Below, piece by piece: positions 3,082 through 41,875 of a stretch of DNA of 64,000 nt; within the stretch, counting starts at the first letter, position 1; every line of letters starts with the position of its first letter. The notes under the pieces were generated by a model. The model worked only from the letters and a program-made list of their open reading frames with translations, was not told the DNA's origin and searched no databases. Made by a program: the position numbers and the translations under genes. The stretch spans positions 108,597 through 172,596 of the forward strand of contig JAHHHU010000012.1 in assembly GCA_019359175.1 (NCBI GenBank). Direction: 5' to 3'. This DNA is from Phormidium tanganyikae FI6-MK23 (GTDB taxonomy: Bacteria; Cyanobacteriota; Cyanobacteriia; Leptolyngbyales; Leptolyngbyaceae).

Positions 3082-4188
3082 TTAGATAGCGATCGTCTCT
3101 CTAATCGTTTTAGCGATCGTACTCCAGTTTAATTTGGTTTTCACTTTAAGTCGCGCTGCCTGAGACATTGAAACTAACACATCGGGATGATTGAGCAAAT
3201 CAATCAAATAATTTGCTAATTGTTCAGCCGTGAGTGAATTCAATACAATCCCATCGACTTTATGATCCACAATTTCGGGCATTCCATCGTGATCGGAAAC
3301 GACACAGGGAATCCCATAATTCATCGCTTCCATCAAAAAGGTCGGGAAGGGGTCACAATCGGCAGGAGCAACGACTAAATCTGATTGTAGAAACAACCGA
3401 TGTAGCTCTGAACGCGATGCGATATGTCCCGGATTTTCAATACCCGATTCCTCGATCGATAGTTTTTTACCAATCACGACAAGTTTTGCTTCGGGGATCG
3501 CTTGCTTCACCTGTCTAAAAGCCTCTAACACCAATGCTCCGCCTTTGCGCTCAAAGTCTGAGCCATTAAACAAAATTTGTCGGCTACCAAACGTTTTGTC
3601 TCCAGCATAAGGCTGTTGAAAATCGCCTGAAGATCCAACAACGGTAACTTTGTGATCCGGCACGTCATAATCTTGAATCAGCGATGCCTTCACAACATGG
3701 CTCATACTAAAAATATGCTTTGCTTTTGCATAAGCCAACCGCTCACACTCAAACCAAGCCTCACGCGATCGAGCATTTAAAAAAGTCGCCCAAGCAGACC
3801 AGTTCTTTTCAGCTAAAGCCGTTGTGTAATCTAACAACATCACATAAGGAATCGTGCAATTCTTCCAAACCGGACTATAAGTTCCAAATAGCTGAAAGAT
3901 TAGATCGGGCTGCTGATTTAGATGCTGAATTTGCCGTTCAGCGCGTTGGGACTTTAATACAAATGCTGCTTTGTTTTTTTGAAACACTGCATTCGCTGCA
4001 CTTAATGATCCCGTTCGCAGCATCAACAGACTTTTCAGCGCAGTTCTCGGTAACTTTGCTTCGTACCACTCACTTTGTCTAGGAGAAAAGTGAATGTGAT
4101 CAAAATGACTCGACAAAGCTTCAAACAAACAGCGATGTCGATCGAGAAACAAGGATTCACCCGTCACCAGAACAGTTTTGATCTCCAT
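3082..4188 (-). CDS. GT4-family glycosyltransferase
   Basis: A 368-residue GT-B type glycosyltransferase. The N-terminal half has little recognisable similarity, as usual for acceptor domains. The C-terminal half holds the donor domain with RQILFNGSDFERKGG (about 203-217), AKLVVIGKKLS, and the donor-site segment ADCDPFPTFLMEAMNYGIPC (about 277-296), which retains the second Glu of the E-x7-E motif. It is separated from the downstream GT4 gene by about 480 bases that contain only the GT2 pseudogene. Upstream, the DUF6625-like gene ends 19 bases away. It is probably part of the same polysaccharide operon. Acceptor and linkage are unknown. Confidence 0.87.
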   Translation of the reverse strand: MEIKTVLVTGESLFLDRHRCLFEALSSHFDHIHFSPRQSEWYEAKLPRTALKSLLMLRTGSLSAANAVFQKNKAAFVLKSQRAERQIQHLNQQPDLIFQLFGTYSPVWKNCTIPYVMLLDYTTALAEKNWSAWATFLNARSREAWFECERLAYAKAKHIFSMSHVVKASLIQDYDVPDHKVTVVGSSGDFQQPYAGDKTFGSRQILFNGSDFERKGGALVLEAFRQVKQAIPEAKLVVIGKKLSIEESGIENPGHIASRSELHRLFLQSDLVVAPADCDPFPTFLMEAMNYGIPCVVSDHDGMPEIVDHKVDGIVLNSLTAEQLANYLIDLLNHPDVLVSMSQAARLKVKTKLNWSTIAKTIRETIAI

Positions 4189-40066: not shown

Positions 40067-40355
40067 GCTTAAAAACTGGAGAATTTTTCGCGCAAGGCTT
40101 ATGAAAACTGGAAAAATTATAGTGCATTTAACAAGAATAGTGTACCCGCTGACTTCGCTCTCAAAAATAGAGTGGCTCTGCTGATATTAAGAGAATGTTG
40201 CGATCGTGCAACTTCTACTCCGCTTTCATAATCTGATTCAAACAAAGAATACGAAGCCTAAAGAAAGACAAATTAACTCAACTTTCTTCTAAATAAATAA
40301 TGCAATCCCTAGCTATCTTTTAAGGAATCCCTCATAATGAACTATTCGCAGATTC

Positions 40356-40372
40356 GTGAATGAATCATTCAC
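40356..40372. promoter_or_regulatory. 17-bp palindrome upstream of the 53-residue protein gene
   Basis: GTGAATGA and TCATTCAC flank a single central A, an ideal dimer-binding site. It lies 52 bases before the start codon at 40424 and about where a -35/-10 region would be, so it may be an operator. No cognate regulator is identifiable. Confidence 0.4.
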
Positions 40373-40423
40373 CCAGATAGATTGTTTTGCTTGATCTAAC
40401 GCAAACTTCAGAGGTGGTTTATT

Positions 40424-40585
40424 ATGGCTATTCCGAAAGCAGTAGACGAATTGATGAACTATTTTTCAGGTGCAGTGACTCGCATCTTCGGCTTAAGTGA
40501 CGATGCTTATCCAGGAACCGGACTTCAGCCCTTTAGCGGGGACGTTTATGACAAAAAGCACGTTAAAAAACACTTCGAGCGCTAA
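40424..40585 (+). CDS. 53-residue small conserved-looking protein, not in the ORF track
   Basis: The frame from the ATG at 40424 encodes MAIPKAVDELMNYFSGAVTR, then IFGLSDDAYPGTGLQPFSGD and a Lys/His-rich end (KKHVKKHFER-like). GAGGTGG lies six bases before the ATG, a good ribosome-binding site. The first 24 residues can form an amphipathic helix, and the second half has a YPxTGxQPFxGD core that I recall from other small cyanobacterial proteins, without having checked. It stands alone, between a palindrome upstream and a hairpin with T-run downstream, so it is a monocistronic gene. No function can be stated. Confidence 0.75.
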   Translation: MAIPKAVDELMNYFSGAVTRIFGLSDDAYPGTGLQPFSGDVYDKKHVKKHFER

Positions 40586-40625
40586 CGCGACAACGTGCTT
40601 CAGGGTCTAGATTTGTAACATTCAG

Positions 40626-40661
40626 AATCGGTAGCAGTTTAATTACTTCTGCCGATTTTTT
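40626..40661 (+). terminator. Terminator of the 53-residue protein gene
   Basis: ATCGGTAGCAG pairs with CTTCTGCCGAT (10 of 11 positions, one G-U), loop TTTAATTA, followed by TTTTTTG. It lies 40 bases after the stop. Confidence 0.75.
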
Positions 40662-40761: not shown

Positions 40762-41454
40762 ATGACTGAACTCGATTTTGTCTTACTTACGGTCTATTTT
40801 TTGTGTGTTACCTACGTTCTCTACCAGATGGTGACTTCGTTTAACGATGAATTTACTATTTGGCTCGATCAAGAGTATCTAAATCAGCAACTCACAGCCC
40901 TGAATCTAAAAGACAGCATTGGGATCAGCTTCAAATTCGAGAATCGTTACGAATTCGACAAGCTGAAGAAATTACAGATCCGCATCACCAATAAATCGAG
41001 CGAGCAAGCGCTCTATGTCGATTGGGACTACTGCGCCCTCACCGATCAGTATGAGCCATCTCGATCGCGGCGCGTGACCCGTTCCGTTTCTGGTTCGCCC
41101 ACCGATGTATTTCAGCGCCAAGCCTTTAGCGCGATCGCACCCGGCAAAACGTTAATGGAAGACCTGTTTGCAGAAGATATGCTGACCCGCAAAGATGGCG
41201 GAGTCCCTCTGCAAGCCAGTGAAACCGTTCTAAGTTTCACGAAGCCCAATAAGAAAGCCTCCGCAGCGAAAAAGAAGCTTTTCCAAAAATTTATGTCCGG
41301 CGAGGAACTGTTCAAATTTGAGCTTTACTTAGTCCTAAGATTTGTCGGATTTGGCTCAACTCCAGGCGGCGATCGTGTTTCGATCGTCTGCCGCCTCAAC
41401 GTTCGTAAACTCGACTGGACAGCCGGACTTCCCTGGAATCCCAAATTGCCCTAA
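40762..41454 (+). CDS. Hypothetical membrane-anchored protein
   Basis: A 230-residue protein that I do not recognise. One N-terminal hydrophobic helix (FVLLTVYFLCVTYVLYQMV, residues 6-24) is followed by a soluble domain of alternating strands. A stretch with KLQIRITNKSSEQALYVDWD (about 70-89) resembles an immunoglobulin-like or beta-sandwich edge, and a Lys-rich loop (TKPNKKASAAKKKLFQKF) lies near 155-172. The start follows GAAGGGA. The protein ends 25 bases before rnpB on the same strand. Transcription could run on into rnpB, though rnpB usually has its own promoter. Confidence 0.7.
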   Translation: MTELDFVLLTVYFLCVTYVLYQMVTSFNDEFTIWLDQEYLNQQLTALNLKDSIGISFKFENRYEFDKLKKLQIRITNKSSEQALYVDWDYCALTDQYEPSRSRRVTRSVSGSPTDVFQRQAFSAIAPGKTLMEDLFAEDMLTRKDGGVPLQASETVLSFTKPNKKASAAKKKLFQKFMSGEELFKFELYLVLRFVGFGSTPGGDRVSIVCRLNVRKLDWTAGLPWNPKLP

Positions 41455-41479: not shown

Positions 41480-41875
41480 GAGAAGAGTTAGCGAGGTGGT
41501 TGCAGATTCGCTTGAATCTGAGGAAAGTCCGGACTCCCAAAAACCCAAACTTGCTGGGTAACGCCCAGTGCGCGTGAGCGTGAGGAGAGTGCCACAGAAA
41601 AATACCGCCCGCTCGTCGGGTAAGGGTGCAAAGGTGCGGTAAGAGCGCACCAGCAGTATCGAGAGGTGCTGGCTCGGTAAACCCCGGTGGGGAGCAAGGT
41701 CGGACGAAACAAGGGTTGGGTTTTTTCCTGTTTCGGTGGGTCGTCGAATTCCGCGTGAATTTGGGCGATCGAGAACCGCTTGAGGTTGGAGGTAACTCCA
41801 ATCCCAGATAGATAACTGCCCTCTGCGTGGCCTAGCACAATGAGAACAGAATCCGGCTTATGTCTAACTCTTCTC
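41480..41875 (+). ncRNA. rnpB: RNase P RNA (bacterial class A)
   Basis: The catalytic RNA that matures tRNA 5' ends. The ends pair as AGAAGAGTTAG (41481-41491) with CTAACTCTTCT (41864-41874), forming P1. Conserved P4 and core text is clear: GAGGAAAGTCCGGACTCCC near the 5' end, then AGGTCGGACGAAAC-like sequence, GATAGATAACTGCC and ACAGAATCCGGCTTATG at the 3' end. Length of about 395 bases is normal for cyanobacteria. A T-rich stretch follows P1. Three track ORFs that cross it (41451-41801, 41488-41877, 41626-41811) are artefacts of this RNA. The protein partner rnpA is not in the window, but rnc follows two genes later. Confidence 0.97.

Follow-up and report, generated by a model that had tools for sequence, protein, structure and literature searches.

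We found that a short open reading frame (ORF) in the window, by which we mean the whole 64,000-nt stretch of Phormidium tanganyikae DNA analyzed here, is very probably atpT. Its product would then be AtpΘ, a small protein associated with the FoF1 ATP synthase of the thylakoid; at a weak proton gradient, it suppresses the reverse reaction of the enzyme, in which ATP is hydrolyzed. An earlier sequence-only reading had left the function of this gene as unknown, which no longer holds, since inhibition of the ATP synthase has already been described for this family, AtpΘ/Norf1. The protein family is thus a known one, and the window gene is an additional member, an atpT gene that had been overlooked before. 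The assignment names a gene that ORF cut-offs, Pfam, and NCBIfam miss and attaches a testable function to it, and the AtpΘ promoter box is shown here to be conserved across many genera; beyond what is published for Synechocystis, little of the biology is new. The features of the locus are as follows.

40333..40338, + strand: CATAAT, probable −10 element of atpT (conservation among homolog upstream regions)
40356..40372, no strand: perfect palindrome GTGAATGAATCATTCAC within the predicted 5′ leader, probably there by chance (sequence; not fully conserved)
40411..40417, + strand: ribosome-binding site GAGGTGG (sequence; homolog sites)
40424..40585, + strand: atpT, encoding a 53-aa protein, most probably an AtpΘ (Norf1) ortholog (homologs, profile matches, primer mapping, purifying selection)
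40624..40659, or to about 40662 with the T-run, + strand: intrinsic terminator hairpin with a T-run on its 3′ side (folding, conservation)

A 53-codon gene under purifying selection

The ORF starts with an ATG at 40424 and ends with a TAA at 40583–40585 on the forward strand, and its size lies below the usual ORF cut-offs. The proposal that a 53-residue gene had been missed here by the ORF track was borne out by a homolog search, which was positive in 69 of 97 cyanobacterial genomes of the same class. Homologs from the same genus had E-values of 4e-20 to 2e-30, and the start, ribosome-binding site, and reading frame were preserved among homologs. A comparison with seven same-genus homologs by codon position showed a strong third-position bias (e.g., 3, 1, and 18 differences at positions 1, 2, and 3), and the nearer five of them gave a dN of 0.03–0.09 versus a dS of ∼1 or more. 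Since the third-position bias is accompanied by homologs in so many genomes, the ORF is not a chance one; on this comparative evidence, it is a real protein gene under purifying selection.

The family alignment shows a conserved core, DDxYPxTGxQPFxG, and behind it a charged tail. Core residues were invariant or strictly conserved in the alignments, and the tail varied among lineages. The hydrophobic moment of the window protein is 0.56–0.57 over residues 3–22, and an AlphaFold model of low confidence (pLDDT 57) predicted a helix at residues 4–22 with the remainder unstructured. This N-terminal helix is probably amphipathic, and such an N-terminus fits a complex-associated protein, in keeping with an earlier suggestion that an amphipathic N-terminus hints at membrane or complex association.

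Identification of the family as AtpΘ

The combination of a short amphipathic helix and, behind it, a DDxYPxTGVQPFxG core suggested Norf1/AtpΘ. Norf1 is identified with AtpΘ, and its gene with atpT, in PMC9241938, which cites evidence that this small amphipathic protein of Synechocystis keeps the FoF1 ATP synthase from hydrolyzing ATP. We searched with a family profile that was built without Synechocystis sequences from an alignment (A1) of the window protein and its relatives; A1 carried one typing error (E in place of D at residue 8 of row 2), and an alignment of the unaltered translations (A2) showed the same core. Exactly one locus was matched in each of the five genomes of a genus that is probably Synechocystis (g60), with E-values of 1.3e-19 to 5e-18.

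The best of these loci (L037) allowed a comparison with primers and offsets published for norf1 of Synechocystis 6803 (PMC5126843; PMC9241938), and four of the published primers mapped at their published offsets. The probe-start primer lies at +10 from the ATG, and the probe-end primer lies across the stop codon (21/28 bases). One promoter primer lies at −471 (20/21 bases), matching the published −328 relative to a start site that is itself at −143; the second lies at −27 (19/21 bases). The L037 locus also encodes a protein of 48 aa, the published length of Norf1. The profile matches, the primer positions, and the length of the L037 protein together identify the family as AtpΘ and the locus as atpT, the tie to Synechocystis 6803 running through this close relative and the primer positions. 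The norf1 probe primer, searched exactly and with three mismatches allowed, had no true site in the class, family, and order samples, the single three-mismatch match being in genome G442; Synechocystis 6803 itself seems absent from these samples, and its relatives are too divergent.

The window protein is ∼40%–44% identical to the Synechocystis-like proteins, and residues common to them, among others, are Y13, A17, R20, F22, Y29, P30, G33, Q35, P36, and G39. Judged by sequence, the window gene is homologous and most probably orthologous to Synechocystis atpT/norf1. Paralogs in some genomes could in principle confuse orthology; by the profile search, the window's genome has a single AtpΘ family member.

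A probable stand-alone transcript with a conserved promoter box

CATAAT was present in 23 of 29 homolog upstream regions versus a mean of 2.9 and a maximum of 8 in shuffles, and outside the genus in 17 of 21 regions versus 1.9 in shuffles. In the window it lies at −91, and its equivalent in L037, GATAAT, directly precedes the published start site at −143 (PMC9241938). CATAAT is therefore a probable −10 element, which would place the transcription start at about 40345. The strong GAGGTGG site reported earlier is present, and most homologs have a similar AGAGGTG/GGAGG site at the same spacing. The gene also has its own terminator, as had been claimed: The hairpin has a folding energy of −16.3 kcal/mol (z −5.7), which no shuffle equaled, and aligned terminators of same-genus relatives keep the stem through changed bases.

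The conserved −10 box and the terminator point to a transcript of its own. Upstream lies a divergent nicotinate phosphoribosyltransferase gene (Pfam), and downstream a gene for a 230-aa protein (40762–41454, + strand) that belongs to no Pfam family and directly precedes the class A RNase P RNA gene (41484–41875). The gene stands alone, with no operon partner pointing to another function. Separately, we noted that the 230-aa protein has an N-terminal hydrophobic stretch; three relatives of the same genus (L009, L012, and L013) likewise carry its start downstream from atpT.

By analogy with Synechocystis AtpΘ, the product of the window gene would act on the FoF1 ATP synthase of the thylakoid, associating with it and inhibiting its reverse reaction at a weak proton gradient, as in darkness or at low energy, sparing ATP. 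In Synechocystis, AtpΘ accumulates in darkness; mRNA stability accounts for most of its regulation and the promoter for some, and RpaB and cyAbrB bind the atpT promoter, a binding known for Synechocystis only (PMC9241938). Homology with Synechocystis AtpΘ likewise suggests that darkness may induce the window gene, with mRNA stability as the main route.

Alternative readings of the locus

The gene had been described earlier as regulated and stand-alone, with an operator-like 17-bp palindrome 52 bases before its start. The stand-alone part is upheld by the terminator, the −10 box, and the lack of an operon partner; the palindrome exists as well (GTGAATGA-A-TCATTCAC, 51 bases before the ATG), and its role as an operator found no support. 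Were it the binding site of a regulator specific to atpT, which would be compatible with the AtpΘ identity, its perfect symmetry over 17 bp, its suitable distance, and the survival of its 11-bp core TGAATCATTCA in the two closest relatives would be accounted for. Yet nothing more of the palindrome is kept in those two relatives, the full 17-mer was absent from the other 33 upstream regions (a few of which duplicate one another) and so, among the 34 regions, is confined to one genome, and much of the genus keeps only one half-site; the CATTCAC half-site was kept in nine upstream regions. A count of perfect palindromes (arms ≥8, spacer 0–4) gave six in the window versus one to seven in five shuffles. 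Furthermore, with a probable start near 40345, the palindrome falls ∼11–27 bases inside the predicted leader, downstream from the conserved −10 box. We therefore rejected an operator role on grounds of conservation, frequency, and position; the upstream regions do not support a conserved regulator site at the palindrome, an atpT-specific site seems highly improbable, and the palindrome is probably a chance feature. When the leader was folded, its stability was not unusual (z +0.7).

Two other readings concern the gene itself. That the ORF is spurious and yields no protein is scarcely credible: Pfam and NCBIfam scans of the 53-aa protein matched no model and a search of solved structures gave no match at E up to 10, as would be expected of such an ORF, but dN is far below dS, the core is conserved across families, the start, ribosome-binding site, and terminator are conserved, and the Synechocystis homolog (Norf1, 48 aa) was detected as a tagged protein (PMC5126843). 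The codon-position pattern refutes it in practice. Another reading accepts the family and holds that this member has diverged in function, its target being, for instance, a different complex of the thylakoid, and that the true inhibitor of the ATP synthase is encoded elsewhere in the genome. The tail does differ among lineages, and a division of labor is possible given that several relatives have a second AtpΘ-family member and some have two or three. However, the profile search found no second member in the window's genome (the only other match was a 12-residue stretch with an E-value of 0.92), the core is strictly conserved, and the window copy bears the conserved promoter box, which together make such a divergence very unlikely. 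We accordingly retain AtpΘ as the identity of the window protein.

AtpΘ-like paralogs in relatives

Several of the additional family members in relatives have distinctive neighbors. In L045 (2271–3100), L046 (reverse strand, hsp20 at 3197–3841), and L049 (2261–3100), a paralog with its own ribosome-binding site starts ∼25–40 bases past the stop codon of an upstream Hsp20-family gene, the Hsp20 assignment being by Pfam in L045 and L046. Given this spacing, the paralog is probably on the same mRNA as hsp20, and the arrangement suggests a heat- or stress-linked operon containing an ATP-synthase-inhibitor paralog. The window's genome lacks an Hsp20-linked paralog. The paralog in L044 (2968–3130; same contig stretch as L003) lies between lactate/malate-dehydrogenase-like and pyridoxamine-oxidase-like genes, with an alcohol-dehydrogenase-like gene also beside it, and its N-terminus, MSLIRWQTIKEL, resembles that of Hsp20 proteins. 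In L048, L050, and L051, AtpΘ-like paralogs were found near a small ComFB-like protein, so called from Pfam matches that were weak and below the curated cut-off in L050 and L051 and by eye in L048.

A narrow literature search returned nothing on Hsp20-linked or L044-type AtpΘ paralogs, and the Hsp20-linked second gene may deserve attention. One speculative and rather unlikely scenario is that the family is split between a general dark-induced copy, represented by the window gene, and a second copy cotranscribed with hsp20 or located near fermentation genes, and that the window palindrome, specific to its lineage, could act as a leader hairpin affecting mRNA stability, an effect with no conservation behind it. 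If the split were true, the brake on the ATP synthase would also be linked to heat or anoxia.

Comparison with known ATP-synthase inhibitors

A search against solved-structure chains at E up to 10 detected no sequence relation between the window protein and the FoF1 ATPase inhibitors mitochondrial IF1 and alpha-proteobacterial zeta subunit; AtpΘ is treated as separate from IF1/zeta, and its inhibition is only partial (PMC9317440). The closest known system is AtpΘ of Synechocystis sp. PCC 6803 (AtpTheta; atpT; formerly Norf1), which is of like size (48 aa vs. 53 aa in the window) and shares with the window protein, itself about 40% identical to the Synechocystis-like proteins, both an amphipathic N-terminus and the core [DN]-x-YP-x-x-G-x-QPF-x-G. 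Both are single genes with their own promoter and Rho-independent 3′ terminator, those of the window being predicted. The two differ in that the window protein has a longer basic tail (KKHVKKHFER) and that the predicted leader of its gene is shorter, at ∼79 nt versus 143 nt in Synechocystis.
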